From Pontederia crassipes (Eukaryota; Streptophyta; Magnoliopsida; Commelinales; Pontederiaceae): DNA of 64,000 nt. The position numbers were made by a program, and so were the translations under genes. Shown in pieces: positions 9,996 to 63,688 of this stretch. Where the stretch lies: assembly GCA_030549335.1 (NCBI GenBank), contig CM060191.1, positions 2,857,001 to 2,921,000 of the forward strand. Reading direction: 5' to 3'. How positions within the stretch are numbered: the first letter of the stretch is position 1; every line of letters begins with the position of its first letter. The notes under the pieces were generated by a model. The model saw nothing but the letters and a program-made list of their open reading frames with translations, was not told the DNA's origin and ran no database searches.

Positions 9996-12900
9996 ATGGC
10001 CTCCGTTCGCCCATTCTCCCACCGCTACGCCGCCGTAGACTCCTCCTCCGATCCTTCCCCGTCCTCCGACCAGAAACGCTCCGCCTCCAGCAATTCCGGG
10101 GGCGGCGGCGGCAGCTCCTCCCGCGCCCTCGTCAAGGCGCGGCCGGGCGATCTCACCTCCAACGGAAAGAATGGGCACAATTTGGGCAGCATGGTCAAGA
10201 AGCTCATGGATAGGAGGTCCAACCCGAAGCCCCGCTCGGGGCGGACGGCGCTGCCCGTCCCTGCCGATCTGATCGCAGCCGACGTGAAGAAGGCCGCCAA
10301 GGGTTCCAATTTCTCCGCCCTGTCGAGGAAGCTGTTCCAGAAAGGAGGAGCCGGCGGCGATGCTGCCCCTAAGTCGGCAGGGAAGGCGCTGACCGAGGTG
10401 AAAACCAACACGCGGACGCTGGCCATGGTGCTTCGCAGTGAGCGGGAGCTCCTCAGCCAGAACAAGGAATACGAGGAAGAGATCTCCCAGCTGCAGCTGC
10501 TGGTATCGGAGAAAGACCGAGAGGTAAAATTCTCGTCTGCTTACATATTTCACGAGCTTCTGCTAAATGAGTTCCCTTCCAACCCCTGTTTCATGAATAA
10601 AAAAAACACATTAGAAATTGATGCCCATCTAAATTGATTGCCTTTGTTGCTGAAAGATACACAATTGTGGGAATGTTTCATTTGTTTTGAAAAGCATTCT
10701 GTCGATTCATTGTCTTAATAGTTTATGTTGCTAAACTACACGAAAAAGTGTTAAAGATTTCTCTTGATGTGCCTTTATTCGTGAGAGCAGATAGAGAGGT
10801 TGAAGGATCTGTGCCTGAAGCAGAGGGAGGAGATAAAGGCACTGAAAGATGCCATACTATTTCCAGATATCATGAATACTCAATTACAAGAGCTACTGGA
10901 AAAGCAAGGGTCCGAACTCAAACAGGCAAAACGAGTTATTCCCACCCTTCAGAAGCAAGTTACTTCCCTCACCGGACAACTCAAATGTCTTGCTGAGGAT
11001 CTCGCCGAGGTTTGATTTAAATTCATCATCTCATTTGTTGCTTAATCTTCTTCATGACTAAGCATTTCTTAGTATTATTCCAAATGAAATTTCCAATATT
11101 TTCTTTTTTGCTGTTAATTTTCTACACAGCTATTAAAGCTTTGGTGCGTTTTAATTTGAAGAAATTTGTTGGTATCATTTCCTTGTATTGAATATTGATG
11201 AATAACTTGAAACCAATTATGTTTTGAGTTATCATGTCTCAAATTTCGAATTCATTAGAACAATGTCTTTTCATTCACATGTGATTTCATGGTTAATTTG
11301 TTAAGCTTTGGTTTTGAGGAATGTTTAATTAGTGATACAAGAAAGTCCTTCAAGGCATCCACAACAAAAATTTCCAAGCCAATGTTTATATATTGAGGAA
11401 ACTTAAAGGGATAGTAAATCATGAGTGTGATATTGGGTAAAGGATCAGTCATCTTGGACAAATGAAGTAACATAAGCTAGAATCTTTGCCAAGGTCCAAT
11501 TTTAACTAATAAATTTTGTTTATCTTGTATGGAACTTTTCATTTCCCCAATTGTTCCTGACCCTCAACATCACGATGGCAATAAGTCAGAGTGATAAGCA
11601 TGTTGGTAACCCAATGCACCCCAAACATTTTGCCTAATGTAATCGGCATACGATCTTCCTCTTAATTAAGTGTTGCATGTCTACCTCATGCAACAACAAC
11701 AAAGCCTTATCCCACTAGGTGGGGTCGGCTACATGGATCATACGACGCCATTCCGCTCATTCGTTGATCCATGTTCATGAGATTCGACAGTGTTTTACGC
11801 TGACTGTCGGGGCCTAACACAAACTTTCTCCTTTATCCGGGCTTGGGACCGGCTATAAAATATAGACGGAGTTAAAAATATCAAGTAAAAACCATCTAAT
11901 ATTCTCCAACTACCTGTGGCTGAGAGGGAACTTCTGATTTAACCCTTTTGTGAAATCAAACCTTAATCCTTCAAAAAGCTCTGGCTTCAAAGAAAATTTG
12001 TAGAACAAAGGATACTCATAATCCCTGAAGATCTCCTTCGTGAATCTTCATGCGGTCATGCCAAAATCTTTATTGGCTAAATGGCTAGACTTCGCAGAAA
12101 ATAAGCACTAACCATCTTGTCTAAATAGAAGTGGACAAACGAAGTGGGTCACGATAAAGAATTGCTAGATTATGAATGAGGTAGAAGCAAATGTAAATAT
12201 AATCTTTTCAGTGAAATAGCAGGTTGGACTCATCTCTATTAGTTATCTTCACATACATGATTATAACATTGTTGATTAAGAAATTCTTTCTTGTTTAAAG
12301 TTCTTATTTTCTCTTTGACATATGGAGCTGGTTTTCTGTCAACAGGTAAGGGCGGATAAATATTCTACCAAAGCATGCTTTGATGGACACCTCAGCTTTC
12401 CAAGGACACCGTCAGTGTTTGATGAGGATGATACAAATCATATGGTACGTCAAAGATCTCTTGTTGGTAAAAATTCCAGCACATATTATGCACATTAAAC
12501 TGGAATGAAACGACCTCCAGTATAATTTTGATGCTTGATTGGAGGGAAGGTATACAATGCTATAAAACTACATTGTGTTCAGAATTCTGGTTAGAATTTT
12601 TTTTAATAAAGGTAAATAGTTCTTTACAACTCGCCAGATTCGACAGATTCAAGTTCTTGAGCAAATTGTAATTGCTGTGCTTTGTATGCTCCAGGAGGAC
12701 AATTCTGATGGGCTGGTGACATCGGAATATGGTAGCCCAGATGACATGTTCCTCAAGGACCTAAACCCTTGTTTGACACCATGCTTCCCAAAGACAAAAT
12801 CTCAGGTAAATTCCCTATTTTTTACCTGAAGTTGCTTTGTAGATGACAGTGAACCGAAACCTTATCATTTGCCTTCAGTTTGAACACTTTAACCTTGTTT

Positions 12901-13295
12901 GCTTAAACAATACTTATCAGTGCTTTACACTTTACAGACAACCGAAGACTGAAACTTCATCATTTTCCTTAAGTTCAAAACACCTTCACCTTTTTCATTT
13001 AAACAACACTTAACACTGCTTTAGTATCATATTGACTTATGTGTTCTATCACGTTCAACAGGAAAATCATGAGAGTTATGAATCATATAGTTCTCCAAAC
13101 AATAATGGATCATATCAAGGCAACGCAGCAGTTGAGTTGAGCTCAGATCCGGGCAGTACTCGTACAGCAATGCTATCAAAGAGTTCAGAGCATCGCCGGG
13201 TACCTAGCATGGGTAGCTGCAGCTCGCGAAAAATTTGCAGATCAGATGAAAGCAAGTGGTCAAATGGAAAGACAAGATACCGTGATCCTTTTTAA
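9996..13295 (+). CDS. Plant-specific coiled-coil protein, function unknown
   Basis: Five exons: 9996-10523, 10791-11009, 12346-12444, 12695-12805 and 13062-13295, all phase 0 (396 aa). The Ser/Gly-rich N-terminus (1-70) is followed by a conserved block, [13 protein letters not shown], then [20 protein letters not shown] and [20 protein letters not shown]. Residues ~145-250 are a heptad-rich coiled coil ([60 protein letters not shown]). The C-terminal third is acidic, then Ser-rich, with a conserved [18 protein letters not shown] motif. I recognise this as a conserved land-plant family without an established role; some database entries give it uninformative names. The MAS start is chosen because conserved sequence begins after it. 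Intron 2 hosts an RTE-derived insertion (11691-11873). No signal peptide or membrane segment is seen. Confidence 0.85.
11691..11873 (-). mobile_element. Short RTE-derived element (copy a) in the coiled-coil gene intron
   Basis: The minus strand reads from aactccgtc... at 11873 to a (TTG)n tail at 11691. The 5' module of the LINE at 15387-18560 ends after gatcaacgaat and joins directly to gagcggaatgg of the LINE 3' end. No clear target-site duplication is seen. It lies antisense to its host gene. Confidence 0.85.
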
Positions 13296-14146
13296 TTAAA
13301 GACATAAGCAAGTGGTTACTGCAGATTTCCACATAAGCTTGTTTAGTCCTTTGTTCTCAGAGGTTTTTGCTTGTAATGCATGCAATATATTAGTGCTTAT
13401 GTATTTTACTCCATGGAGTAAAACAGTGTAATTGAATATGCCCTATATATGATTTTCCTACTCCACAATCTCTGTTTTTTTTTCTTTTATTCTTATGCTT
13501 AAACAGACTGTTTATCAGAGTCAAGTGCTTATTTGCGGTAAATTGTCAGGACATTCTGAAAAACGCACCTGGAAAAGTTTCGTTTACTTTTGATAGCTAA
13601 AATTGCAAACAAACTTGAGCAAGAATTGCATCACAAAGATGTGCATATTTGTGACTTGGAAGAACTGCAGGTGATAACTTGTGTGCTTATAAGAGATGGG
13701 AAAAAAAGAAGAAGATACTCCTCAAGAGCAAATAGATAAAGACAAATAATAAGACACATTGGAAAATAGACAGAACAAGAAAAGCAATGCAACTTGGCAA
13801 TCGTTACAAAATTTAAATAACGATTTCCTTAAAGTTAAGATCAATTTATAAAAGTATCAAGTGGAGTATTGTCTGCTTCAACTTCCACACTCCAATTTGT
13901 CTCCACTAGAAAGAACAAAAACACAAGTTCCTCAATGAGAACAAAATTACTTTTCTATAATAACAGATCTGACGAACATGGGTAAACAAGAAACACGACT
14001 GGCCTTAGACAAGAAAGCAAAGCTGCATTTGGACAGCAAAAGTCCAGGAGAGAGTAGCCCCAAGGTACCCAATTGCCTACTTGAAAAGGTTACTGCTTGG
14101 ACATTTTCAGAATTGAATCTCACTTCATAGCTAGAAACAGAAACCA
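13296..14146. other. Convergent 3' region between two genes
   Basis: Spacer between the + strand coiled-coil gene and the - strand RPS10 gene. It must contain both 3' UTRs. No further coding signal is seen. Confidence 0.4.
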
Positions 14147-17100
14147 TCAGAGCTTAACTTCCACATCCACACCAGCAGGAAGGTCGAGCTGCATCAGCGA
14201 ATCAATTGTTTGGGCAGTTGGATATAAGATATCAATTAGGCGCTGATGAGTTCGGATCTCAAAGTGGAAACGGGCATCCTTGTGTACGTGTGGCGATTTG
14301 AGCACACAGTAAATACGTTTCTTAGTGGGTAGAGGAACAGGGCCCATGGTCTTTGCATTGGTGTTGCGAGCAGCATCAAGTATCTGCTTGCATGAGTCTT
14401 CAATCAGAGGTACCCAGTATGACCGCAGTTTTATCCTTATCTTCTGTTTCGGTGCCATCTGAAAAGGAATAATATACATATAGTAAGAACTGGTGTGTAA
14501 AGAGTTTTTACAGCCAGATGCACAATGTGCATCTTTTCTGTTGAATATTTTTGGTGAAACTTTGAACATGATAATTAGTGAAAAAAAGGTTACACGTCAT
14601 TTATGACATGAGAAAGGTGGAAGAGCGCAGAACGTACTAGCATTAACTAAAGATCTAGCAAACAATCAGGCCAAATTTTCACTCAACATACAATAAAACC
14701 ATACATTGGAAATAGAAGTAATCCAATGAAGGAAGAAAAAGATGTACTATTTATTCCAAGAACTGCATATGTTTCTATAAGCAGAGAAAGTTTTGAGACA
14801 TGCAAAGTATCTAAGATGCAAAAAACAATTCATAAAGGAAAAATAAATACATACATCAAGAGGCAGTTCTAATTTAAGTTCATTGATAATTCTTACAGGT
14901 TACAATCTTTCCTCTCTAACTATCAAAAAAGTTGAATGGCTTACAGATATGTGTAAATTGAGATATCAAAGCTATGATCTAACACGTACACAGTTTATTT
15001 TCTTATGAGAAAATAAAGAAAGTAACTATAGTTAAAGGTTAAACTACTACATCATCAACTGAACCCTTTATTTACAAACATGTAATGATATCTAGCTTCT
15101 TTCACAAAATGATTGGATTGAAGTTGGATTTTTAAATCTGTTAATTTCCCAATTCTTCTAAGAGTTTTTTTTTGAAAGGAAATTCTTCTAAGAGTTAGAT
15201 TAAGTGCCAATTTACTTTTATGATGATATAACAGATTACAAAACATGATTTCATGGATCACATCTCATTTATGGCTATCAAAGGATTAGTGCAAGATTCA
15301 TAAACAATGATAAAACAATGATAATACAGCAAATTGCCGCAAACATGGAACCAAAGAAAAATACCCAAGATGCATTTATTTTATGAAACTCCGCCTATAT
15401 TTTATAGCCGGTCCCAAGCCCGGATAAAGGAGGAGGGTTGTGTTAGGCCCCGACAGCCAACATAAAATCATGTCGAATCTTATGAACATGGATCAACGAA
15501 TATATTGTGTTAATGCTAGGTCGTTACCCGTAAGTAACGCGCTGTACAGCTCGGGTACAGTGATAAGAGAGCAAAAGCCGCTGCATCCTCGCCTGAATGC
15601 AGTGTTAAATGAGCAAGGGCTACCGCACTCTAATGGACGGAGGCGGTTAAAGAAGCTAGTTCATGAGACTAAGGTCAGATTAGGTTCTTGGAACATTGGG
15701 ACGTTGAATGGGAAGCGCCTCGAGGTGGCACAAGTAATGGACCAGCGTAAGATTAGTATCTTATGCTTGCAAGAAACTAGATGGGTAGGAGAGGGAAGTA
15801 AAGAGATTAGGTTAAATGGTTCCAAACTTTGGTACACAGGTAAGGTAAATGGAAGGAATGGTGTTGGTATTATCGCGGATGCAGAATGGAGGAAGAATGT
15901 TGTGGAAGTTAAAAGGATTGAGGATCGAATCATATCCGTGAAAGTAATTGTTGGAAAGGAGACTATGAACATTATTAGTGCATATGCACCCCAAGTAGGA
16001 GCAGAATCACATCTCAAGGAGAAGTTTTGGGCAGATATGGAGGGTTTGATTGAAAGTATACCAACAACCGAGAAAGTTTATATTGGGGGAGACCTTAATG
16101 GACATGTTGGTAAAGAGGCAGGACCACATGCAAGGGTTCATGGTGGTTTTGGTTTTGGGGAGTTGAATGAGGAAGGACAAACTATTATTGATTTTTCTTT
16201 AGCATACGACCTTAAGATTATCAACACTTGTTTTAGGAAGAGAGAGGAACATTTAATCACATACAAAAGTGGAACTCATAGGTCTCAAATCGATTTTTTC
16301 TTGATAAGAAATACTGATAAAAGACGTTGCACTAATTGCAAAGTAATTCCTGGGCATGGAGTGACTACACAACATAGATTGTTAGTTCTTGATATGCAAA
16401 TAAAATGTATAAAACCAAAATCCCGAACAGTTTTTGATCGAAAGATCAAGTGGTGGCAGTTAAAGGGGGAGAAGCGAGAGACTTTTAGAAGTAAGTTATT
16501 AGAGGAAAGTGTGTGGGAGTTAGAAGGAGATGCTAGTATCATGTGGAAGAATGTGGCAAAAAAGGTTGAAATGGTTGCTAAAGCCATTTTAGGAGAATCA
16601 AAAGGTTTTGGACCACGAGATAAGGAGACTTGGTGGTGGAATGAGGAGGTCCAAGAAAAGGTGCGTAATAAGAAGAATTGTTTCAAGGCGATACACTTGG
16701 ACAATAGTTCTGACAATTGGGAAAAGTATCGTTTGGCGAAAAGGGAGGCTAAGAAGGCAGTTAGTGATGCTCGTGCTAAAGCATACGAGGGGTTTTATAA
16801 GGAGTTAGGGACAAAGGCGGGTGAACAAAGGATTTACAAGATTGCAAGGAACAAAGAGAAGGAGTCGAGAGATTTGGATCAAGTAAGATGCATAAAAAAT
16901 GAAGTTGGCAAGGTTTTAGTTACTGAAGGAGATATTAAGAACAGATGGGAAGAGTATTTCTATAAGCTATTTAATGATGGATGTGAAGGTTCGCGTTGTG
17001 ATTTGGAGGACTTGACAGTTAGCGAATGTGAGCTTAATAAGTCATTTTATCGTAGAATTAGAGTCTCGGAGGTTAGCGAAGCTCTTAAGAAAATGGAGAA

Positions 17101-18926
17101 TGGTAAAGCCGTTGGACCGGATGGTATACCGATTGAAGTTTGGAAATGTTTAGGAGAAAAAGGTGTGTTGTGGTTATGTAAACTATTTAATGAGATTTTA
17201 CGGTCGAAAAAGATGCCTGATGATTGGAGATTAAGTACATTAGTTCCTATTTACAAAAATAAAGGGGATATTCAGAATTGTGCAAATTATAGAGGGATTA
17301 AACTTATGAGTCACACTATGAAATTATGGGAAAAAGTGATTGAGCATAGATTGAGAATGGATACTAGTATTTCTGAGAGACAATTTGGGTTCATGCCAGG
17401 AAGATCCACTACAGAGGCGATTTATTTACTAAGGGGGATGATGGAGAAGTATCGAAGTAGGAGAAGAGACTTACATATGGCTTTCATTGACTTAGAGAAG
17501 GCGTATGATCGGGTACCAAGGGATGTACTTTGGAAAGCCTTGCAAAAGAAGAGGGTGAATGTTGCCTACATTAAGGTAATACAAGATATGTACGATGGGG
17601 CATTGACTAGGGTTAGAACACCCGGAGGTGAGACAAATGAATTTCCTATAGAAATTGGCCTACATCAAGGATCAGCTTTAAGCCCGTATCTATTTAACTT
17701 AGTTATCGATGCTATAACCGAGAGTATCACAGAGGAGGTACCTAAGTGCATGCTATTTGCGGATGATATAGTACTTTTAGCGGATTCAAGAGAAGAGATT
17801 AATACAAAATTGGAAATATGGAGAAATACGTTGGAGTCAAAGGGTTTTCGTTTAAGTAGGAATAAAACAGAATATATGCATAGCAATTTCACAAATAAAC
17901 AACTTAGAGACGATTTGAAAGTTAGGTTAGGGGAGGATATAATTCCTCAAGTGACAAAGTTTAAATATTTAGGATCAATTGTAAAACAAGATTGTGAGAT
18001 TGATGACGATGTTAATCATAGAATTCAAGCTGGTTGGTGTAAGTGGAGGAAAGCCACTGGAGTTCTTTGTGATAGAAAAGTACCCAATAAAGTTAAAGGA
18101 AAATTCTATCGTACTGCTATAAGGCCAGCAGTGTTATATGGTAGTGAATGTTGGGCTATGAAGGGACAACATGAACGTAAAGTGGGGGTAGCCGAAATGA
18201 GGATGTTGAGATGGATGTGTGGTCATACAAGATTAGATAAGATTAGGAATGACCATATACGTGAACGAGTCGGAGTGGCTCCTATTAGTGAGAAAATGGT
18301 AGAGAATCGTTTGAGATGGTTTGGTCATGTTCAGAGAAGACCATTAGATGCGCCAGTAAGAAGAGTAGATCAAATAATCTGGAGTCCGATTAAAAGAGGG
18401 AGAGGGAGGCCAAGGCGGACACTTGGCGAACTAATAGAGCAAGATCTATTGGTGAATAATATACCGAAAGGTTTGGTTACTAATAGAGCGGAATGGCGTC
18501 GTATGATCCATGTAGCCGACCCCACCTAGTGGGATAAGGCTTTGTTGTTGTTGTTGTTGTTGCATTTATTTTATGAAAATTGCAGCCCGTTCTTGAAGAT
18601 ACCCTCTGCTTGCTCTTCATAAATCACATGAATTAAGTTTTGGGAACATCCAAACACTTGCAGGCATATGAATATCAGTTGTCCTAATGCATTAATCAAA
18701 ATGTGAAGCAGCAAAGTGCCATCCTTTCAACATTTAGACCATGAATGGTTTGTCGTCAAATAAATAAGCATTATAACCACTATGCTTTTGTGTGTTTACC
18801 TGAACTAAAGGATCCGTGTACTTAAGACGGTATGCAATCCAGGTTTAAACATTGCTCGAGGCAATTTGCAAAAACGATAATTCAAGATGCTCAATCATCT
18901 TTGAACATGTTGTTTCGACAATTTTG

Positions 18927-18958
<32 letters not shown>

Positions 18959-21413
18959 AGCCTTATCCCACTAGGTGGGGTCGGCTACATGGATCATACG
19001 ACGCCATTCCGCTCTATTAGTAACCAAACCTTTCGATATATTATTCACCAATAGATCTTGCTCTATTAGTTCGCCAAGTGTCCGCCTTGGCCTCCCTCTC
19101 CCTCTTTTAATCGGACTCCAGATTATTTGATCTACTCTTCTTACTGACGCATCTAATGGTCTTCTCTGAACATGACCAAACCATCTCAAACGATTCTCTA
19201 CCATTTTCTCACTAATAGGAGCCACTCCGACTCGTTCACGTATATGGTCATTCCTAATCTTATCTAATCTTGTATGACCACACATCCATCTCAACATCCT
19301 CATTTCGGCTACCCTCACTTTACGTTCATGTTGTCCCTTCATAGCCCAACATTCACTACCATATAACACTGCTGGCCTTATAGCAGTACGATAGAATTTT
19401 TCTTTAACTTTATTGGGTATTTTTCTATCACAAAGAACTCCAGTGGCTTTCCTCAACTTACACCAACCAGTTTGAATTCTATGATTAACATCGTCATCAA
19501 TCTCACCATCTTGTCTTATAATTGATCCTAAATATTTAAACTTTGTCACTTGAGGAATTATATCCTCCCCTAGCCTAACTTTCAAATCGTCTCTAAGTTG
19601 TTTATTTGTGAAATTGCTATGCATATATTCTGTTTTATTCCTACTTAAACGAAAACCCTTTGACTCCAACGTATTTCTCCATATTTCCAATTTTGTATTA
19701 ATCTCTTCTCTTGAATCCGCTAAAAGTACTATATCATCCGCAAATAGCATGCACTTAGGTACCTCCTCTGTGATACTCTCGGTTATAGCATCGATAACTA
19801 AGTTAAATAGATACGGGCTTAAAGCTGATCCTTGATGTAGGCCAATTCCTATAGGAAATTCATTTGTCTCCCCTCCGGGTGTCCTAACCCTAGTCAATGC
19901 CCCATCGTACATATCTTGTATTACCTTAATGTAGACAACACTCACCCTCTTCTTTTGCAAGGCTTTCCAAAGTACATCCATTGGTACCCGATCATACGCC
20001 TTCTCTAAGTCAATGAAAGTCATATGTAAGTCTCTTCTCCTACTTCGATACTTCTCCATCATCCCCCTTAGTAAATAAATCGCCTCTGTAGTGGATCTTC
20101 CTAGAAAGAGCAAGCATATTATCAAGTTGGGACAGGTTCGCATATTACTAGAAAGAGCAAGCATATTATCAAAGCAGCATGGAGATGTTCCTGTAGTCCT
20201 TTGTGGTGATTTAAATAGCATACCGAAGGTAGCATATCTCAGTCTATGACTTTTTATTTAATCATGCATTGGGATTTTCTCAGGTAGCTTCCTTAGTTCA
20301 TTTTCTTCTAGGGAATTATTGATGGTTGTTTTAACCTAACTCTACATGTTTCGATGATCTAAATCATTTTGTTTTTCTTGATAGAGTGCAATATACCGCC
20401 TATATTTTATAGCCGGTCCCAAGCCCGGATAAAGGAGGAGGGTTGTGTTAGGCCCCGACAGCCAGCATAAAATTCTGTCGAATCTTATGAACATGGATCA
20501 ACGAATGAAATGACGTCGTATGATCCATGTAGCCGACCCCACCTAGTGGGATAAGGCTTTGTTGTTGTTGTTGTAGTGGATCTTCCTGGCATGAACCCAA
20601 ATTGTCTCTCAGAAAGACTAGTCTCCATTCTCAATCTATGCTCAATCACTTTTTCCCATAATTTCATTGTGTGACTCATAAGTTTAATCCCTCTATAATT
20701 TGCACAATTCTGAATATCCCCTTTATTTTTGTAAATAGGAACTAATGTACTTAATCTCCAATCATCATGCATCTTTTTCGACCGTAAAATCTCATTAAAT
20801 AGTTTACATAACCACAACACACCTTTTTCTCCTAAACATTTCCAAACTTCAATCGGTATACTTTCGACAATTTTGAACAAGTATCATAATTAGAATGCAA
20901 CATTAAGATAAGATACGCAAACGAGGTGAAATCAAAACAAGACATTTCCCGAACTTCAAGGCACAAGGCAACACAGACGAAATGGAAGAAGGACGCAGCA
21001 AACAGAAGCCAGAAGGCAACCAAGCGAGAAGTGCAGAGTACCTTTTCCGCTTCGCCCACGTCAAGAGGAGACGGCTCCACAACCTGCAACGCATCCCCAT
21101 ATATTCCTGAGCGACGACATCGAAGACAAAGTGGAAAAGGCAAGAAGGGGCGGTGGAGAGGTCATCAGCTTACCTCGAGGGACGGGGTCCCCGGTTCGGT
21201 AGCGGAGGCCGCCGCGGCAGTCACGATGAGGCGCGACGGGGAGCGCGGGATGTGGGAGGAGAAGGAAGCGGACGGAAGCGAGGAGGATGAGGAGGAGGAA
21301 AGGGGAGAGAAGGAGACGGAGGAAGGCTTGGGCTTGGCGGAAATGGAGGAGGAGTTGCTGCAGAGGGGGAGGAGGCAGCTGGCGGAGGCGGAGAGCGAGG
21401 AAGCACCAGCCAT
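14147..21413 (-). CDS. RPS10: 30S ribosomal protein S10, chloroplast precursor
   Basis: Minus-strand exon 1 is 21413-21174 (80 aa) and exon 2 is 14458-14147 (103 aa), both phase 0. Exon 1 encodes a Ser/Ala-rich transit peptide, MAGASSLSASASCLLPLCSN, then TAAAASATEPGTPSLE, with a consensus GTAAGC donor. Exon 2 begins after a pyrimidine-AG acceptor with MAPKQKIRIKLRSYWVPLIE and encodes all of S10, including VLKSPHVHKDARFHFEIRTH and LPAGVDVEVKL. S10 is part of the small-subunit head and is essential for plastid translation. The 6.7-kb intron carries two RTE LINE copies in opposite orientation plus a nested chimeric insertion. A small middle exon cannot be excluded, and joining these two exons is my model, but the phases match and no other minus-strand gene lies between them. 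Confidence 0.82.
15387..18560 (+). mobile_element. Full-length RTE-clade LINE with perfect target duplication (copy b)
   Basis: The element begins (a)actccgcctatattttatag near 15387 and ends in GGGATAAGGCTTTG(TTG)n at ~18560. It is flanked by an identical 18-bp repeat, tgcatttattttatgaaa (15371-15388 and 18561-18578), the target-site duplication; the first bases are shared with the element ends. It has a ~80-nt 5' leader, one long ORF and only about 15 nt of 3' UTR before the TTG repeat, as in RTE elements. The perfect duplication and intact ORF indicate a recent insertion that may still be mobile. It lies antisense within the RPS10 intron. Confidence 0.93.
15470..18529 (+). CDS. RTE-clade LINE ORF: AP endonuclease plus reverse transcriptase
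   Basis: An uninterrupted 1,019-aa ORF from the ATG at 15470 ([19 protein letters not shown]); the frame is open from 15440 but without an ATG. The AP endonuclease spans residues ~71-310, with WNIGTL, QETRW (101-105), SAYAPQ, GGDLNGHVG (~207-214), SQIDFFLI and QHRLLV. The reverse transcriptase spans ~540-800, with GPDGIPIEVWK, ANYRGIKL, ERQFGFMPGRST, AFIDLEKAYDRVP, GLHQGSALSPYLFN and the catalytic LFADDIVLL (FADD at 763-766). The C-terminal part contains RLRWFGHVQRRP and ends ADPT. All catalytic residues I can check are present. Proteins like this are often misnamed craniofacial development protein 2-like. The enzyme nicks target DNA and primes reverse transcription on its own 3' end. Confidence 0.95.
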   Translation: MSNLMNMDQRIYCVNARSLPVSNALYSSGTVIREQKPLHPRLNAVLNEQGLPHSNGRRRLKKLVHETKVRLGSWNIGTLNGKRLEVAQVMDQRKISILCLQETRWVGEGSKEIRLNGSKLWYTGKVNGRNGVGIIADAEWRKNVVEVKRIEDRIISVKVIVGKETMNIISAYAPQVGAESHLKEKFWADMEGLIESIPTTEKVYIGGDLNGHVGKEAGPHARVHGGFGFGELNEEGQTIIDFSLAYDLKIINTCFRKREEHLITYKSGTHRSQIDFFLIRNTDKRRCTNCKVIPGHGVTTQHRLLVLDMQIKCIKPKSRTVFDRKIKWWQLKGEKRETFRSKLLEESVWELEGDASIMWKNVAKKVEMVAKAILGESKGFGPRDKETWWWNEEVQEKVRNKKNCFKAIHLDNSSDNWEKYRLAKREAKKAVSDARAKAYEGFYKELGTKAGEQRIYKIARNKEKESRDLDQVRCIKNEVGKVLVTEGDIKNRWEEYFYKLFNDGCEGSRCDLEDLTVSECELNKSFYRRIRVSEVSEALKKMENGKAVGPDGIPIEVWKCLGEKGVLWLCKLFNEILRSKKMPDDWRLSTLVPIYKNKGDIQNCANYRGIKLMSHTMKLWEKVIEHRLRMDTSISERQFGFMPGRSTTEAIYLLRGMMEKYRSRRRDLHMAFIDLEKAYDRVPRDVLWKALQKKRVNVAYIKVIQDMYDGALTRVRTPGGETNEFPIEIGLHQGSALSPYLFNLVIDAITESITEEVPKCMLFADDIVLLADSREEINTKLEIWRNTLESKGFRLSRNKTEYMHSNFTNKQLRDDLKVRLGEDIIPQVTKFKYLGSIVKQDCEIDDDVNHRIQAGWCKWRKATGVLCDRKVPNKVKGKFYRTAIRPAVLYGSECWAMKGQHERKVGVAEMRMLRWMCGHTRLDKIRNDHIRERVGVAPISEKMVENRLRWFGHVQRRPLDAPVRRVDQIIWSPIKRGRGRPRRTLGELIEQDLLVNNIPKGLVTNRAEWRRMIHVADPT
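20103..20572 (+). mobile_element. Chimeric nested insertion: transduced CCR4-like fragment plus short RTE element (copy d)
   Basis: Inserted into copy c with a 15-bp duplication, gtagtggatcttcct (20088-20102 and 20573-20587). The 3' part (20396-20572) is a short RTE derivative with a TTG tail. The 5' ~290 bases are not RTE. They encode KLGQVRILLERASILSKQHG then VPVVLCGDLNSIPK on the + strand, followed by a splice-donor-like gtagca and intron-like DNA. At the extreme 5' end a 23-nt segment (20103-20125) repeats sequence found 47 bases downstream. Confidence 0.88.
20125..20229 (+). pseudogene. Transduced exon fragment of a CCR4-type deadenylase (EEP family)
   Basis: Translation in one frame gives KLGQVRILLERASILSKQHG, then DVPVVLCGDLNSIPK, up to a gtagca donor-like boundary. 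The GDLNSIP motif and the preceding LGQVR...LLE helix are characteristic of the endonuclease/exonuclease/phosphatase domain of plant CCR4 homologues (poly(A) deadenylases). Only this exon end plus intron-like sequence is present, so it is a non-functional passenger of the retrotransposed RNA. The parent gene is not in this window. Confidence 0.75.
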
Positions 21414-21520
21414 TCTGACGACGTTGCTATGAACGCTGCGGCTGCTTCCTCTCTTCTCTTTCGCTCTGTATCTTATCCCTTGCAATAAACCACAGAGAAA
21501 AAGGGATAAAGGGCAAAAAT

Positions 21521-21576
21521 GGAGAAGAGAAGAGAAGAGAAGAGAAGAGAAATAATAATAATAATAATAATAATAA
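21521..21576. repeat. Compound microsatellite (AGAAG)n-(TAA)n
   Basis: Tandem agaag units are followed directly by about nine TAA units, just upstream of the RPS10 start. Confidence 0.9.
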
Positions 21577-24749: not shown

Positions 24750-27700
24750 ATGGGTCGCTCCCGCGCGGTGCCCAACTCCGGCGACGACGAGGCCAGCCAG
24801 AGGTCTGTCTCCTCACACCTCCTCCCTCATTTCTTGCTTTCATTCTCTCGTTCGAATTGATGGATCGTTTGCTGATCTTATAAGTGCGGGCGAGGGCGTC
24901 GGTCTTTTTTCACCTTTTTTTTTTAAATTTTGCTTTTGCAGCTTCAGTTGACTGATTACTATTAGTTTCTCTCAGTTATAGGTAAACATCAATCTCCGTG
25001 AACTGAACAAATACTGGCTATGATCGAATCCTCTCCCTTCCAGTAGTTTTGAATTGAAGATTTCTGTAATTTTATGAATTATCCCCTTCTTTCTATTGTA
25101 TTGCACATAAGTATGCTCGGTGAATTTAGTGACTGAAGGTGTATGTTAACTAAAGGTATCAACTTTAGATTAATCGCATAGACACGAATGGTCATTTAAA
25201 TCTTTACCACACTGGGATTACTTGTTGAGAAAACGTGAAAACAAATATATAGAAAATAAATTCTGTTCATTGAATTCTTCAGGGGGTCTTTTAGATGACA
25301 GGCAGGCTTCAATAGGTATACAGTTGATGCACCTGCACCCACATACTCAAATGGTGCGGTGCACTTTGTGATTGATGAATTGTTCTCAGGGTTGGCAAAA
25401 TTTATAGAATAAGATTGTGCAATAACCATTGTAGCCTTTGATGTATCTCACACTATATTTGATCCTTTAGCCCTCTCAACAACAACAACAACAAAGCCTT
25501 ATCCCATCGTTGATCCATGTTCATGAGATTCGACATGATTTTACGCCGGCTGTCGGAGCCTAACACAACCCTCCTCCTTTATCCGGGTTTGGGACCGGCT
25601 ATAAAACATAGGCGGAGTTCCTTTAGCCCTCTCAAGAAAAAAAAATTGGATCCTTTAGGATAAATCTAGACATCACAGTGAGTAAGACTAAGCAAGTCAA
25701 CATCATATCCTGACGCCGATTGATAAAGTACGGTTCAAATGAAATGTGTATGTGGTATGATAAAACTAGTACAAGGATTCAAGGAACTTGTTGATGTGCT
25801 CTAAAACTTGTTGTCATTTATATATATTGGTGAATGGGAAGAATGATGCCTACAAAGTTGGTAGTAAACCGTTCTGCAGTAAGATTGTTGGAGAAAATGT
25901 CCATGTGTCTATGGGAAAAGAAGAGCTGAAAAATTGTAAATGAGCATGAAAAAAGCCCAAATGGTGACAATCCCATCTGCCACTCCCTAAAAGAAAGGAA
26001 ATGGTGTGTTATATTTTCTGCATTGTAGTCATATGGCCCACAGCATGTCCATTGCAGTCAGCTCTCATGCTAAAAGCATGAAAACCACTTAATCACTTAT
26101 TAAAGAGAAGATGAACGAGGGATGCTTATTGGACTCCAAAATGTGTTAGGAAGACCAAGGAAATAGTTCAAATCCTCTTCTCAAAAAAAAAAAAGTTCAA
26201 CTCCTCATTTGTTCACGTGCCATATGGGTTATGACTTATGATCCATTGGGCCTTGGGTTGATGAATGCTCATAAAAATATCATATCATTCAATAACAGAT
26301 ATAACATGAAAAAAATTTGGCTATTTGTGTGATTTTATTAAAAGACACCGTTGCTATAATGCCTAAATTCTTTGTAAGGAAAGGATTAAGTCCCTGCATG
26401 TCAGAACTTTATTCACACACCGGTTACTGCAACCTTGGTATGAAAGAATTTTGCATATCAGGAAATGCTTAATTTCCTTTGTCGTGGATTAACACCTTTC
26501 AGCGCTGCTTGCATGCCTTAGAGCAAAAGGGCGCATGGTGCATACCTTTGTCTGCCACATTATATAGGCTGCCTCTAAATTAGTTGCCACAATGATTGTT
26601 GGTGAAATGTTCATCATTTGAGGTGTTTAATTATAAATTGGACAAGCTTGCAGTTACTAGTTTCGAATGCTAGGGTTTTAAGTCTTATCCGTAGTCCTCT
26701 ATAAATCTTCTTTGATCTGGTTAATCATCCTGTGACTTCTGTCCACTTTCCCAAAAAAAAAAAATCCTTTGCATTTTTAGTCTACTGTGATGAGTTAGTT
26801 CTTTATTCTATGTTATTTGACTCCAAGTAATTGTGAGTTTTGTTCTCTTGCATTCAATTCACTTGTTGTTTATGGTTTTTGAAATCCAATACAGTTTGGT
26901 ATTTTTTTATCATAATCTCAATATGGTGCAATGTTGTAAGTCTGATGTGACCCATTTAGTATGTTATCATAATCTTTTGTTTATATTGTTGCCTTCTTTG
27001 AATATTTTGTCTCTTTAACCATTATTATTTCTCTTCCTTTAAGCAGAACAAAGAGGAGGAGAGTTTCTTCCAGTGGGGAAGCCTTGGAAACGGTAACTTC
27101 AGGTAGGTATCCATTTGCTTGCATAAAACACCAGGAGATTATTGTATATAAGAATCATAATTTAAATAGCTATCTATTTTTTCCCCCAAACCATCTTATA
27201 TTTTTATTTTCTGAGGGAAAACAAAAGGGAAAAAAATAATGAAGGAATAGTTTATTTTTGACATCAAACAAAGAATGTGATGAAGTCTTATATTGACATG
27301 TCAATGTCAAGAGGCAGGTAACCTTTTGAGCGGTCTTGTCTTGATTGGAAACAGTGTTTGAACTATATCAAGACCTTTGTTCAATTCCTATTTGTAGTCC
27401 CTCTGAGTTTCTTGTGTGATTGCAAGAGCTTTGGCGTCGACTCCTTAAAAACTTGATCTATTTTTTAATCGAGAAAGGACAACCAGCAAGATGGTACTCA
27501 TCCAGGCTTCATTAATATTGAGAACGATTACAAGATTATGATTAAGAGAAACAAAAGCAGCTGAAACTCAGCACCAAAAGAAACAAAAAATGCCATACGG
27601 CAGAGGTGACATGTTATCTGCAGTTCTTCCATTCTCCAAGTAGGGCCCTTGCATGTGCGTTAACGTTCTCATCAAGTCATCATACCCCCCGAAGACTGAA

Positions 27701-42500: not shown

Positions 42501-45500
42501 TACGACTATTATTTTTATCCTTAAAAGCAAACTCTTTTTGTAGTCATAAAACTTTTCTTCTATATTAAATACAACAACAACAACAACAAAGCCTTATCCC
42601 ACTAGGTGGGGTCGGCTACATGGATCACGCTCGTTGATCCATGTTCATAAGATTCGACAGGATTTTACGCTGGCTGTCGGGACCTAACACAACCCTTCTC
42701 CTTTATCCGGGCTTGGGACCGGCTATAAAACATAGGCGGAGTTTTTCTTCTATATTAAATATTAAAACATATTACTCATTAACATTTACAACCTTGGATA
42801 TAAATACATAATCCACTATATTATTATACCAATACACACACACATATATCATATAAACATGTTTAATTAATTGATTTAACAAATTTTATTCATTACTATA
42901 CATAATCAAATTGGTGAGGGAATTTAGATGTCCCTCCTACCAACTAAGTGTACTTCTGTGGAGAAGCAGAAACGTCGACCAGGAGGGAGCCCATAATAGA
43001 TTTAATTGGGATAGGAAAATTTGTAACCTCTTCATGATTTAACCATCCATCTTATTTTTCTTAAGAATTCGTAGACATCTCAGTGAAATGTTAACAGCAC
43101 TAACTAATTACTTGTTGCAAAAAGAAGTCATGAATAGCACAACTTGAGTGAGCCAACTAAGTTAAAAGTGAAAAAAGAAAGGCAACTTAAGAGTGAGACA
43201 ACTAAGTTAAGAGTGAGAAAAAACAACTTAAGAGTGTGCCATAAACTGATAGATTCGTTGGCTATCAAAGCTATCTTTGAATGCTGCAATTATCTTTTAA
43301 TACTGCAATTGTAAACAGTTTATATACTGAAGTAACTAATTGTATAGTGCAATAATATAAATTACTGCCTTCTGATAGCTTGTTGCCTATCTAAACATCG
43401 AAGACTGAGAACAGCAATTACTTCTGGCTAACCAGAAGATGTTTGCCAACTCTTCAATCATAAGATGTCACAAACAAAAAGAACACCAACCACGTCAAGC
43501 ATTTCCGTTTTTTTTTTAAACAAGTTGATTGAGTCGAAGAGTAGAGCCGAGAACAGAAGGAAAAAATAAGAAGGGGCGGTGGGGTGGCGTGGGTGGGGAT
43601 GGGGAAAACATAAGTCGATAGCATGCAGAGGGGACCGTAATCAGATGGAGATTCCGAAGTCGTACTTAGATGTGTACGGGTGGTCCCCGGGGGAGACGGA
43701 TCTCCCAATCAGGTGATTGATATCGCTGTTCCAAACTACACTGCACATCATGCACAGAGGGCCCTAAAGAAAGATGGCAAGCCTGTCGGCAGCAGCGGGA
43801 GGGGTACAAAAACCATGCCACAGGCTAAGCTTCTTAAGGGCCACTGCTGCATTGCCTGCACCCTGCACTGCCCCTGCCATGGCGAGGGGGAAAGAAGAAT
43901 AAGGGCAAAGGACATCCCAGCAGTTGGCTGGCTGGCTGAGGCTGGCCTCATGGAACCGCAGGCAGAGAGAGATTAGTCAAGGTACAGAAGCGTATAGAGC
44001 TGTAGCAGTACGGCTCTTTGACCTATACCAAGAAAGAAAGAATTGAAAGAGGAGAGAGAGACGTCGAAAGGCGACAATATAAAACCCTACACGAAATATA
44101 TAACGTCACATCACCCCTCAAATATTAAAAAAGAAGGGCGAACAAAGTGGGGGACTTGGCCATACAGAACGCATGCAAACATAGTCCAAGCATGTCAATG
44201 GGTTTTCCTTTTTAATATGAAAAGCTAAGAATTAGAAGCTCTCGATAGTTGAGATCATCTTGTACTGGAGAACAGCTGCCTGCTGCTGCCACACCATCCA
44301 CAGATAGAGAGAAAGAGGGGTAAAAAGCAAACAGGAACAGAAGATGTGATGGGGTAAATTAGATAAGACATATGGAGGGGAGTGAAAAGGAGGCGGGGTC
44401 CATGTGAAGACTGCAGCGTGCAAAGCCAAACTTTGGAACATGAGGACGTGCGAAGGTGTGAGCAAGGAGAGAGAGAGGAGAGACAGACTGATAGGTGGAG
44501 GTGCCTTGGGCGCAGGGCAGCAGGGAGGAGAAGAGGGGGTGGAACAGATGAAACCAAGTTGTGGAGGTGGTCTTCGGAGGCAGCAAAGGCTTGATAGCTG
44601 CAGGCAGGTTCTCCACACTTAGCAGGAAATCAATAAAAAGAAAAGGCAAATGCCCCTTCTTTTCCCACACTGTCATTTCCAAGAAGAAACTGCACACGTA
44701 TATCAATATAAATATAAAAAATGTACGCATTTAGCTTCTATTTATACTAATCAATATGTTATCTCGTCCTTCCCAATGCTGATTAATTTTGCTGGCACTT
44801 CTCCCATTCAAAATTTCTTTACTTTTCCAGCATTAAAAGAAATTCAAAATTATTATTATCACTTTATTTTGGTGTCACCCCAATAAAAATACTGAAGATA
44901 CGGACCACGTCCTTGTGATTGTTACTTCTTTTTTTTTATATGCATAAACCAATGCAATCAAACCAAAGGGAATCCTTCTCTCCTCCTCCCTTCCGAACCA
45001 GTCAAAATGCATGAGTCCTGATCCACATGACTTAAACTAATTAACTTGGGGTTTGCACATCGATCCATTGAGGTTCAATTAGGGACCTGATGATGCGGAT
45101 GATGCAATTAATTAACGAAAAAAAACAAAACACCAATCACACTCCGTTTAACTTACCAATGTCTCCCCCTACACTCACTCCACAGTGTTCCTGAAATGGG
45201 TAAGAAAAGACCGCCCAAAAAAGGATCAAAACGGCAACGAAAGCGACGGGTCTCTCTCTCTCTCTCTCTCCACTTTCGAGCGTAGCTGCTGCCTGTGGAG
45301 CTTCGATCTATCTTGTGGTCTATTCCGTGCCTCTCGCTACGCTTTCTGGTATTCAATCCAATCCGTCTCATGCATTTTTACCAGTAACGGTAGCAACAGG
45401 ACAGAATCCGAGCACACTTTTTCGTTCATTTCTACGAGAGCTCATGCATTAAAACCTAAAGAAAGCAAAGCGATGGAAAAGAAAAGAAAAGTAACGAAGG

Positions 45501-52324: not shown

Positions 52325-52371
<47 letters not shown>

Positions 52372-52800: not shown

Positions 52801-52804
52801 ACTG

Positions 52805-53780: not shown

Positions 53781-53837
53781 ATTAATATAATAATATTAAT
53801 AGTAAAGCAATTATTAATATTTAATTATTGATTTATT

Positions 53838-54311: not shown

Positions 54312-54319
54312 GATTTATT

Positions 54320-55420: not shown

Positions 55421-55429
55421 TTGGACTCC

Positions 55430-58850: not shown

Positions 58851-58852
58851 AT

Positions 58853-59039
58853 ACAACAACAACAACAACAAAACCTTATCCCACTAGGTGGGGTCGGCTA
58901 CATGGATCATACGACACCATTCCGCATTCGTTGATCTATGTTCATGAGATTCGACAAAGTTTTACGTTGGCCGTCGAGACCTAACACAACCCTCCTCCTT
59001 TGTCCGGACTTGGACCGGCTATAAAACATAGGCGGAGTT
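58853..59039 (-). mobile_element. Short RTE-derived element 3' of TIM50 (copy j)
   Basis: Minus-strand copy with a CAA/TTG tail at 58853. The 5' module ends gatcaacgaat and joins gcggaatggtgtcg. No clear target duplication is seen. It lies ~550 bases beyond the TIM50 stop codon, in the same orientation as TIM50. Confidence 0.87.
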
Positions 59040-59595
59040 TTCAATGGTAGGTGCGAGATCATCGTTTTCAATGGTGCACAGGAACGCTGGCCACCAAGAG
59101 GCAAATACCATACTGAACTATTAGATCCCAAGAACAATAGCAAGCAAGTACACTCTTGATTTAAGCTCGATAACAGTAGAATTTATTATGCCTATCAAAT
59201 TTCGATGTAAACCCCTTGAACAACACAGGAAGAAAAAAAAAGGGGCAACAGTGCAGATTTCGCAGACTGACTGATGCAGAGATGTAGAGGGTCCAGAATC
59301 CAGATGGCCAATTAATTTATGACTAACATGACACGTTTCCTATCTCATGACATAGGGAAAAAAATTGAGCAGGACGAAAAATCAAATGGTCCTCCATCAG
59401 CACGGTTGAACTCACAAAAATGGGGAGAAAGTGGGGTTGAGGATCAACTCTGAACCTGCCCCTCCTTCCCCAATGGTGACAGGTCAATTGTGATGAAAAA
59501 AAAACTCTGAGAAACTCAAGAAAAGCTCACAAAGCTTTCTTTTTTCTCGTGATGAACATTTTCCTTCTAATACCAGTGAATGTCATCGTGCAGTT

Positions 59596-62528
59596 TCATC
59601 GCCTCCAAAGACGACTATGTTGTTTCTGTTCTTGCAGCCTCCTGCAAAAGAACAAAAACAGAGCTCCATGCATTAAAAGTTCACATAAAACTGCACAAAC
59701 CTAGTTAATCATGGCCATGGGTGCAGAGTTTTCTTTAAAAACACTTGCAAAAAAGAATTGCCTTAAATTACGAACAATAGTGTCATATATAAAGGCTTTG
59801 GCTAGTGTTTATAAAATAATATTAGGAGGGTTTTTATTTAGAACAATGGCCTCTCCTTGCAATAAAAAAAATTGTTATCAAGGGTTCATCAAGCATTATC
59901 AAGTTTGTCATTGTAATTTAAATATAATCAGCTTCATGAAATCACAATGAGAGCACAGTGATAAACATGATTGTAAATATGTATACATATAACTACAGAA
60001 AGATACAAATGTAACTAAGTATTTATGCATCTCTTAAACCATACTTGAAGCGACTAAACACACTTGTACTTATAAGATAATTTTTTTAGGACTTGTAAGA
60101 TAATTTTAATTAGCTAACTCTAGCTATATTTTAAAGATAAATTATTAACAATATTTTTTTTTCTTTTTAACAACATAAAAAGAGGTAGAAGGAAGTCTAA
60201 TACAAGTACTTCAAAATCAGCATAGGATTTCATCCTTTTACTACCTTAATGTCACAGTTTCAAACCCCATGGATATGTTACTTAAAAGGTAACTAGTTCA
60301 CAAATGAGCAAAGTTCTTACTTCTGGTGCTCTTTCGAGCGCTCTATGAACTCAGTGGGTATATCGCGACCTTGATAGGATGCAAGTACAGGTCTTATATC
60401 AGCAGGTCTATGCATGGCAACATCTGAAATAAAACAATCAGGATTAGGTTTTAACAAGATTCAAGGAAGAGAAAGTTTCAATGGATGTAGTCCATGTATA
60501 TAGTCTTGAATAGCCTACACTCAAGGAAGGGAATAAGGTCTAGAAGGGCAGTGTCATCATTTTCCAGCTTCCAGGCCTTGACAGGAACACAATTCTCAGG
60601 CTGAAGGCTACTTTCCAGAGCATGCCCACTAATGTAAAGTATCCTCGAAGGATCTCTATTCAGCTTTGAGAGGTCCTGCAAGAAATACAGGGGGAGTGAT
60701 GCAAAATGAATTTCGAAGAACATGTACCATTAGGAAATTTGTTTTGTGCCTTTCCTCAAAATATTTCAGGTTATGACTGGTGAACAATAAAAGAGTGTAA
60801 TCAACATTATTACTACTACTCATTGCTTTTGAAAAACTACAGAATAACAAGGAAATAGACATACTACCAAGATAATGTCCCAACTGCTTCAAAAGAAAAT
60901 TAAGGACTTCTATGTCCGTAAATTTATGTAGAACAAAAACCAGGTATCAATTTGAGGTGGGCACGGGGTTTTCAGCTGACTGCTGTATTATATGCCATAT
61001 CAGTCTGCTAAAATAGTTGCATCAATTCGGTATCTAGAAGTCCAACGAGTCACGACTAAATCAATTGAAGCTGGAAGCTTTTCTTTTAGGAGAGGGCAAG
61101 AGAATTAAAGGTTTAACTGCGACATTCCAGAATTAGATCATGTGACCTCCTATCGAGGTTCAAACCATAACGACTTGAAGCAATGAACCATTAAAAATTC
61201 AAACCAAACAAGCATAAAAGGGAGGATAAATAAGTAAAAAGAAAAACTAGACTATCAGCCAATACAGACACATGTCAGACCTATTTCTGGTGGAGAACAA
61301 AGTGTCAAAAGACCATAGAATCAGATTGGTGAGTTGCCAGTACCAAATCAACTGCAATGGAATAATGGTTTGATACAAAGACCTATTCATGAACACTATG
61401 AAACAATAGGGAAATGAATAAATGAATACCCAATAAGCAATCCAAAAAATTTCAAAACAAATGTCTACCCGATAATGTTTCCCATTCACATATTTTGTTG
61501 CGGCCCTTGATAATCTATAGCGGATACAACCCTTCTGATCCAGCCTTTCAATCACAGGATCAACATACTGCAAACAAAGGAATAAATAAAAGCTTACTAT
61601 GGACACTGCTATTTTGCTCATATCTTCTAAAGGAAGTTTAATCAACGTACCATGTTCAACTGATCAGAGTACACAACAATTTCATAGAACTTAGCCAGAT
61701 GCTCCAAGAAAGCATCAACTCCAGGCCTTTTAAATGTCCTCCAGCCTCTATCACGCTTTAATCAGAAAGGCACGAGTTAGAAACAACAAAAATAGGAGAA
61801 GGACAAAATTTTGTGAAATCGTCATCTCAGCGCACTAGCAGTTCAAGAAAGAATGACGTCCAAGCACTTCCCATATTATAAGTGCCTTGGTCACAAAACT
61901 ACTGGTCCAAGGCACATGAACTTATTCAAATATCTAAACAAGTAAACAACTGGCAGCAAACAGTTGAGTGCCTTTCAACAAGATAAAGGTCAGATGCAAT
62001 CTGACAATACAATCAAGGAAAAAGAACAATACTACGAACAAAAATAATATAACAAATGAAGAAGATACAGTATAAGATGTTAAAGTTCACAAGGAGGGAG
62101 AAAGTCGATCATTCTCCTCTAATATCAAAATAGTAGAAAGAAGGACAACCAAAGAACCTCTGTTAGCAGTGCACACTCCCTATCCCTACAAACAAACAAC
62201 TTTACCTTCCAATCAGAGTATACTAGTGTCTCATTGAGGTCTAGAACAAGAGTGAAAACATGTTGTTCCTGAGGAAGTAAATCAGGCAGAAGCTTCTCTG
62301 ATGATGGTTCAGTAAAACCCTAGGCAAGAAAAGTGGAAGAAAGTTGCCACAGAAATTAGCTTTATCACATAACAACAAACAACAACAAAGCCTTATCCCA
62401 CTAGGTGGGGTCGGCTACTTTATCACATAAGATTACTAAAATAAATAATCATCAAATTTTACATACCTGAACATGTTCTTCTATTGTTCTCCTTAGATCT
62501 AGGTACAGATCAAGAGCCTTTACAGGCA
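59596..62528 (-). CDS. TIM50: Mitochondrial import translocase subunit TIM50, C-terminal part
   Basis: Minus-strand exons, 5' to 3': 62528-62467, 62319-62206, 61755-61651, 61567-61469, 60675-60519, 60423-60321 and 59641-59596, with consistent phases (~228 aa). The first of these starts mid-codon, so earlier exons lie beyond 64000 or were not found up to it. The protein has [18 protein letters not shown] (FCP1/HAD-like fold with a modified DxDxT loop), [80 protein letters not shown], and ends [18 protein letters not shown]50 is the intermembrane-space receptor of the TIM23 complex and receives presequence proteins from TOM. The missing N-terminus would carry the presequence and membrane anchor. 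Introns contain RTE-derived insertions at 62373 and 62645. Confidence 0.94.
62373..62417 (-). mobile_element. Extremely truncated RTE 3' end in a TIM50 intron (copy k)
   Basis: Only ~45 bases, comprising the CAA/TTG tail plus aaagccttatcccactaggt and a few more, between a 13-bp duplication ctttatcacataa (62360-62372 and 62418-62430). It shows that reverse transcription can abort within 40 bases of the 3' end and still integrate. Confidence 0.9.
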
Positions 62529-62644
62529 CTGCAACATTAGTAAGCATATGAAAATGTAAGGACATGAACAAGCATGAGATGCAGATCATGCGAAAATAAT
62601 ATATAGATATATTTTTGTTGAGGGATATAGATATCACATTATTA

Positions 62645-62822
62645 ACTCCGCCTATGTTTTATAGCCGGTCCCAAGCCCGGATAAAGGAAGAGGGTTGTGT
62701 TAGGCCCCGACAGTCAGCGTAAAACTCTGTCGAATCTCATGAACATGGATCAATGAAGGCGTCGTATGATCCATATAGCCGACCCCACCTAGTGGGATAA
62801 GGCTTTGTTGTTGTTGTTGTTG
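62645..62822 (+). mobile_element. Short RTE-derived element in a TIM50 intron (copy l)
   Basis: Flanked by a perfect 19-bp duplication, tatagatatcacattatta (62626-62644 and 62823-62841). The 5' module ends gatcaatgaa and joins ggcgtcgtatgatcc. The 5' module contains a cgacag...ctgtcg hairpin. It lies antisense to TIM50. The perfect duplication suggests a young insertion. Confidence 0.93.
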
Positions 62823-62841
62823 TATAGATATCACATTATTA

Positions 62842-63507
62842 CAATGGGACAAAAATTTCCCATGAAAACAACATTCAGCTATTTCTATGAAGACGAGCAA
62901 GTTTATGATAAATTGGAGGAAATTTTGACAAAAGAGGTCTTACAAAACATTATAGAATGTATAGCTATAATTTCAATAGACTATCAACAACCAATCCTTG
63001 TTAAATGATTCGCAACTGCTATGTTCAATACATGCTTCAAATTGATGAAATCAAATGTCTTAATGAAGTCACAGCATTGACTATCTATCATTTTAGAATG
63101 AGAGTAAGAACATAAAGGAGCTTATGCATTTTTGTCATCATCTGTCCAGTAGTAAGCCATTCTTTTCAAAGAAAGAAAACATTCATGTTCCTTTGTGTAG
63201 ACTGCATAGCTCATACATTTGAAACATATGTACCTCTCCTGAATTTTCCTATGAAATTAAACTCTAAGTTACAAGGTTAAAGATGAATACATCCTAATAT
63301 AAGCATTGAATGCTACACTTTTTTATTGACAAATACCCTTCTACTTTTCTCAAAAACAAGATATACCCTTCCATAGCACATTCCACCATCAACCTATGGC
63401 AAGATTCTCAAAAGCAATGCACAACTTAAGGACAAAAACACAATAATATATCTGAAGGTACAAGTACTAATACAAAAAAAATATTAAATATTAAATTGAA
63501 CAACTAA
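62842..63507. other. Presumed TIM50 intron
   Basis: No TIM50 exon could be recognised on the minus strand between 62529 and 64000, so this is probably one long intron. A small + frame at 62805-63008 begins in the RTE tail and has no recognisable domain. Confidence 0.4.
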
Positions 63508-63509
63508 CA

Positions 63510-63688
63510 ACAACAACAACAACAACAAAGCCTTCTCCCACTAGGTGGGGTCGGCTACATGGATCAAACGACGCCATGTTGATCCATGTTCATGAGATTT
63601 GACAGGGTTTTACGCTGGCTGTCGGGGCCTAACACAACCCTCCTCCTTTATCCGGGCTTGGGACCGGCTATAAAACATAGGCGGAGTT
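63510..63688 (-). mobile_element. Short RTE-derived element in the presumed TIM50 intron (copy m)
   Basis: Flanked by a 17-bp duplication, aaattgaacaactaaca (63493-63509 and 63694-63710). About five extra bases (gaata) lie at its 5' junction, possibly untemplated. The 5' module ends gatcaac and joins atggcgtcg of the LINE 3' end. Confidence 0.92.

Follow-up and report, generated by a model that had tools for sequence, protein, structure and literature searches.

The 64,000-nucleotide stretch of the Pontederia crassipes genome analysed here (assembly GCA_030549335.1, contig CM060191.1, positions 2,857,001 to 2,921,000; hereafter the window, located on contig 9 of a 1.13 Gb genome) hosts an intact long interspersed nuclear element (LINE), together with short composites in which the 5' and 3' ends of this LINE are joined and the coding region is missing. 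The LINE spans window positions 15387-18562 on the plus strand, ends in a TTG tail and is flanked by the duplication GCATTTATTTTATGA. It has been used as reference for all mapping, with ref 1 corresponding to window position 15387. An open reading frame (ORF) of 1013 amino acids (15488-18529, plus strand; ATG at ref 102-104, stop at ref 3141-3143) encodes both endonuclease and reverse transcriptase, as matches to PF03372 (endonuclease/phosphatase family, Exo_endo_phos) and PF00078 (RVT_1) both score above cut-offs. We take the LINE to be of the RTE type, relying on a preliminary description of this DNA and on the TTG tail. The 3' ends of plant RTE families are TTG or TTGATG repeats in the available text of PMC3747384.

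Copies in the window were found by BLAST of the LINE against the window, and their junctions were placed by two-segment alignment. In eight composites the 5' part ends at ref 111-116 and the 3' part resumes at ref 3075-3144. Two are on the plus strand, at 20396-20577 (junction 115/3104) and 62644-62823 (114/3109). The others are on the minus strand, at 11691-11873 (115/3100), 25477-25619 (113/3144, which has lost the 3' arm of the panhandle predicted below), 38721-38924 (116/3075), 42571-42743 (about 113/3115, or 3118 with 3 filler bases), 58853-59039 (115/3102) and 63508-63688 (111/3107). They begin at ref 1, with one exception at ref 5; BLAST identity of the 3' parts to the LINE is 89-100%, and flanking duplications are seen at several. 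A ninth composite, at 42411-42490 on the plus strand, is 5'-truncated and joins ref 93-98 to ref 3118-3123, approximately. The composites announced in the preliminary description are real, and the breakpoints given there are correct within a few bases (window 18461 is ref 3075, and 18530 is ref 3144); one copy set apart there as an exception is, by our guess, the truncated one. The composite at 20396-20577 is inserted inside a LINE copy (18938-20861) that has lost its 5' end.

Sequence was examined in the window and in about 298 kb of contig 1, and exact words were counted in the whole genome, so that the counts are lower bounds for the family. A strict junction pattern, demanding a 5' edge at ref 115 or beyond, has 6,236 genome matches. 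Words taken from the 5' module (25-mer), the 3' end (28-mer) and the continuation of the LINE 5' end (29-mer) have 12,109, 17,934 and 1,116 matches, respectively; all four reversed patterns gave 0. Target-site duplications of at least 7 bp flank 31 of 48 full copies with available flanks, against a mean of 1.4 of 48 with shuffled flanks. Both the lack of reversed matches to the strict pattern and the excess of duplications indicate that the composites are not chance assemblies. The first 37 listed 5' anchors of contig 1 correspond to 29 simple composites and 4 LINE 5' ends continuing past ref 260 (L052, L055, L056, L065), a ratio of about 7:1. The remaining four are diverse. In L067 (C1:2782398-2782720), a double-jump copy, part of the 5' module (about ref 73-115) occurs once more as an insert, and each of the two stretches stops at the same landing site, CGAAT (ref 115). 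In L070 (C1:2866591-2866913) the 5' module runs through the start codon (ref 104) directly into the TTG tail, with no other 3' sequence. L051 and L054 have no recognisable 3' end; L054 (C1:850640-850966) runs to about ref 120 and continues into A-rich sequence.

The 29 anchored composites and the 9 window copies make up a sample of 38 copies not chosen by junction. In these, 32 distinct junctions were counted; among 100 listed matches to the strict pattern the distinct junctions are 40. Junctions do not follow sequence relatedness. In 65 full composites, the distance outside the junction is 0.0574 for the 54 pairs sharing a junction and 0.0578 for the others (permutation p 0.49), nearest neighbours share a junction in 2.3 of 65 cases versus 1.75 in shuffles (p 0.29), and only 1 of the closest 40 pairs has a common junction. 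L012, L022 and L028 show no difference at the positions compared, yet feature three junctions, those of L012 and L022 being 1 base apart. Since copies with the same junction are no more alike than others, most junctions seem to have been formed again at insertion and not passed on by masters of short interspersed nuclear elements (SINEs). LINE sources for both types of composites are present, because LINE 5' ends include a young type (L052, L065) and one nearer to the common composite type (L056). The view that no single master gave rise to the short copies is thus sustained, and the few subfamilies with identical junctions that the preliminary description had named as the outcome contrary to it were looked for in the sample and not found.

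The composites share with SINEs the target-site duplications and a LINE-like 3' end, and with template-switch chimeras the same-strand fusion flanked by such duplications. Descent from one or a few master transcripts, as expected of SINEs, was not seen, junction and sequence being unassociated in the 65 full copies. Amplification from few masters as the main process is contradicted on this sample by the same missing association and by the many distinct junctions. Ordinary SINE families derived from several masters, each with its own junction, would accommodate the recurrent junctions: 115/3102 is found in 13 of the 100 listed copies, 113/3112 in 276 copies of the genome, and the classes 113/3112, 113/3110 and 118/3100 are nominally close. 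The lack of overall association and the number of distinct junctions (40 of 100 and 32 of 38) make this origin very improbable.

The two edges of the junctions differ in spread. In the sample of 38, the 5' edge is narrow (quartiles ref 113.25-116, median absolute deviation 1.0) and the 3' edge broad (quartiles ref 3099.6-3110, median absolute deviation 5.5), the ratio of standard deviations being 3.3 (bootstrap 1.8-8.0). The two edges are also anti-correlated (rho -0.64, p 1.4e-5, 0 of 5000 permutations). The trend persists when only 3' edges below 3115 are considered (rho -0.49, p 0.004, n=33), and on the 32 distinct junctions (rho -0.63). A stronger value in the non-strict subset (rho -0.75) has been set aside, as omitting the strict copies biases the correlation. 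Coupling is not created by mapping, as independent junctions simulated and mapped alike gave rho from -0.21 to 0.21 in 6 runs. Genome counts follow the same rule: 5' edges 113 and 115 occur 276 and 15 times with the 3' edge 3112, and 21 and 74 times with the 3' edge 3104. Among five junctions counted the commonest is 113/3112; 113/3110 has 121 matches. Edges at ref 103-111 also occur on the 5' side.

The preliminary description had proposed a fixed 5' breakpoint opposed to a sliding 3' one, and explained it by repeated jumps of the reverse transcriptase, after copying 30-100 nt, onto a fixed landing site. The difference in width holds, and repeated, largely independent jumps after about that length of copying are supported, but the 5' edge itself shifts with the 3' edge in the opposite sense. 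Coupling of landing and take-off is not expected from a fixed RNA end, and the fixed site is therefore unsupported. The same objection concerns a jump to the 3' end of a separate short RNA, such as a 5' fragment of about 113-118 nt shielded by a ribosome on the start codon (ref 102-104) or released by a cut at the edge of the module. In its favour, the landing zone is situated some 12-17 nt inside the ORF, L067 used ref 115 for both of its landings, junctions devoid of microhomology are not depleted (60 of 88 versus about 55% by chance), as in end-to-end jumps, and the chimeras described in the accessible parts of PMC13174262 (U6-L1) and PMC2104539 (MGL) provide parallels. However, the end of a fixed acceptor predicts landings independent of take-off, and the landings at ref 103-111 mostly accompany late take-offs; the explanation is accordingly unlikely. 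Alternative splicing of the LINE RNA from one donor to many acceptors, suggested by a single narrow 5' edge facing several 3' edges, is hardly credible, since landing and take-off slide together. Checked by eye, the donor side reads AATATATTG, with no GT, and the bases preceding the main 3' edges (3102, 3104, 3110) are not AG.

Microhomology does not look to be the general driver of the junctions. The 60 junctions without any were counted in the 88 mapped copies, which include one element twice (L006:5 is L053) and are thus 87, the sample of 38 and the 65 full copies being unaffected. Microhomology is similarly absent from 53 of the 100 strict listed junctions and from 26 of the 38 sampled ones, of which just 1 features 4 nt or more. 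Short shared words may nevertheless help at some sites.

A structure able to bring the two edges together is predicted in the LINE RNA. The sequence at ref 100-109 is the exact reverse complement of ref 3118-3127; when the two 120-nt ends were shuffled, 10 bp were reached 19 times in 1000. In the predicted fold of the whole 3,172-nt RNA, a helix extending from 100/3127 to 113/3113 has pair probabilities of 0.93-1.0. Its 5' arm (ref 100-113, ACATGGATCAACGA) is at 15486-15499 and its 3' arm (ref 3113-3127) at 18499-18513, both on the plus strand. The duplex has an energy of -28.6 kcal/mol, equalled by 3 of 1000 dinucleotide shuffles. Past this helix the model places an internal loop (114-116 versus 3110-3112), followed by two short helices, 117-120/3106-3109 and 122-125/3101-3104. 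It also pairs the TTG tail with ref 65-76, at probabilities of 0.3-0.85. Landings concentrate at the predicted unpaired loop 114-116 (15500-15502, plus strand) and at its neighbours, and the junction 113/3112 sits at the inner end of the helix. The helix is kept in the predicted fold of 36 of 37 examined composites having both 6-base arm cores intact. In the fold of ref 1-174 alone nothing unusual was noticed (z 0.49). Such a panhandle, with a first helix ending at 113/3113, would account for the narrowness of the landing zone as well as for its coupling to take-off.

We propose that most short copies arise de novo during insertion, when the RTE reverse transcriptase crosses a panhandle formed by the 5' and 3' ends of the RNA and leaves out the ORF, and assign to this reading a probability of about 0.55. 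It builds on junctions unlinked to lineage, target-site duplications, variable take-off and a narrow, coupled landing; the jump would take place across the predicted pairing of ref 100-113 with ref 3113-3127. Target-primed copying would begin at the TTG tail and proceed for 30-100 nt up the 3' end. The enzyme would then jump just past the start codon, omitting the ORF, and finish at the ribozyme-like first bases of the element. The putative panhandle would keep the zone of landing (ref 113-118) close to that of take-off (3100-3112), and a plausible trigger is the RNA-RNA helix, which may re-form behind the enzyme and strip the young complementary DNA (cDNA) from its template. A wider formulation, by which a built-in panhandle steers the reverse transcriptase across the ends of this RTE RNA, and SINE-like copies arising de novo are the commonest 5'-complete product, with neither SINE master nor SINE transcript, is possible but more doubtful.

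The same coupling, and junctions at helix edges, would be expected if the inverted repeat ref 100-109/3118-3127 snapped back in single-stranded cDNA, and second-strand synthesis skipped the loop. Copies carrying only the 3' end are informative in this respect. Twelve short ones, a number that excludes a spurious 25-nt match in L054 and 3' ends continuing into the LINE body, start at ref 3077-3128. The window has 3'-only copies at 34071-34145 (start ref 3091) and 62371-62418 (start ref 3126, near the predicted base of the panhandle), both on the minus strand. As the twelve end in the region where composites take off (Mann-Whitney versus non-strict composites, p 0.27), they point to stops occurring during first-strand synthesis, and skipping on DNA would presumably need a full 3 kb cDNA every time, so that we regard this route as rather improbable. 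Five of the twelve start at 3126-3128, the outer base of the predicted helix, as might be expected of an enzyme running into the helix, though numbers are small.

Several observations weigh against a copying process guided by the panhandle. The odds ratio of 65 given by the four genome counts above (61 after removing 17 C5 places of 113/3112) comes from junctions without microhomology ambiguity, but these were chosen after the sample had been seen, and copies are not fully independent. At least 3 of 13 listed strings depart from the trend, joining about ref 101-105 to ref 3107-3111 through the shared word ATGG. Microhomology of 4 nt is found in 16 of the 100 strict listed junctions, compared to about 4.7% on a flat grid; these 16 are two junctions with a shared 4-nt word, and the excess of this class in the strict list means that shared words matter at some sites. 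The panhandle is a prediction made on one family, and conservation of the arms says little, because both are located in or at the start of the ORF. Window 731 of the LINE pairs with the 5' region equally well, and pairing as strong as in the panhandle duplex is reached by 11 of 2000 LINE window pairs drawn at random. Landing saturates at ref 113-118 while take-off reaches ref 3058, which implies a loose register beyond the first helix. In L067 a second jump set off within the 5' module and led to ref 115 once more. Starts at 3126-3129 are found in 5 of the 12 3'-only copies and in 2 of 32 non-strict composites (Fisher p 0.011). Finally, 3 of 14 junction classes (113/3112, 113/3110, 118/3100) comprise copies nominally more alike than random ones (p 0.035-0.04, uncorrected), and limited re-amplification of small classes may have occurred. 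The two compared copies of 113/3112 are among these (p 0.035), and about 18 places of the same junction cluster between 13.6 and 14.7 Mb of C5, at intervals of tens of kb, probably as a segmental array; 113/3112 may in part be an amplified line.

Elements of comparable architecture are known in mammals. Bov-A2, MAR4, RTESINE1 and RTE1-N1_LA are described, in the portion of PMC3747384 available, as SINEs made by RTE 5' and 3' ends and lacking a transfer RNA (tRNA) head. The composites described here similarly join an RTE 5' end to an RTE 3' end without such a head. The mammalian elements are named families as far as that text goes, whereas most copies sampled here have their own junction, coupled on both sides. 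The tobacco TS SINE, which the same text associates with RTE-1_Stu, also features a plant RTE partner, a TTG tail and a shared 3' end, but has a tRNA-related head in place of the ribozyme-like 5' end of the LINE itself. Au-like plant SINEs end in poly(T) according to that source, and composites in TTG; the comparison is by description only. An internal RNA polymerase III promoter would be disfavoured by the TTTT run near ref 14-17.

LINE reverse transcriptases that switch templates without homology, that switch twice, or that do so near predicted hairpins are all known from the accessible part of PMC2104539. MGL and U6-L1 chimeras, as they appear in the excerpts of PMC2104539 and PMC13174262, resemble the composites for the variable take-off on the LINE, target-site duplications, double switches and sites near predicted hairpins; no microhomology was seen in those chimeras. 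In those chimeras the acceptor is another RNA; here it is the 5' end of the LINE itself, and landing depends on take-off. Pseudogenes of small nuclear RNAs truncated at the 3' end and mobilized by L1 exhibit, in the descriptions available, complementarity to the insertion site, while here landing follows the jump and occurs in a predicted internal loop. The coupling of landing to take-off is new here. A literature search, outside which most subscription journals fell, found no report of coupled junctions or of a panhandle steering such jumps. A search for relatives likewise gave 0 exact matches, in a viral contig collection and in a genome contig collection that may omit near records.

The usual view of SINE-like families is that they descend from transcribed masters; the abundant short class found here looks like a by-product of LINE copying. 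Its junctions would report on the shape of the RNA in the cell and, at little cost, show across the whole genome at which points an RTE reverse transcriptase departs from its template and lands. A testable reason is also offered why composites of RTE 5' and 3' ends, such as Bov-A2, MAR4 and RTESINE1, could arise repeatedly.

The 5' end common to LINE and composites resembles a self-cleaving ribozyme. A match to the twister-P1 model (RF03160) is located at 15382-15441 on the plus strand, with the core aligned (59.6 bits, E 4.2e-13). The score misses the curated cut-off of 67.2 bits, and at this cut-off 0 matches were obtained across the 10 sources scanned. The 8 window composites whose 5' end is complete or nearly so match the model as well (E up to 0.01). 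The cleavage expected of a twister ribozyme, at U|AA, would fall at or beside the first bases of the element, AAC. The structured 5' module surmised earlier gains support from this twister-like end. Twister ribozymes occur in rice, according to the accessible text of PMC10226581, and that of PMC7761336 announces, as in preparation, RTE elements with a truncated twister motif at their 5' end. The likeness to the latter is in the motif and its position; composites, which here retain the motif, are unmentioned in the available part of PMC7761336. In L012, L021, L026 and L051 a partial extra 5' end (ref 1 to about 17-24) is found immediately upstream of the element start, separated by about 2 nt from the complete one, and may reflect either repeated jumping at the 5' end of the RNA or nested insertion.

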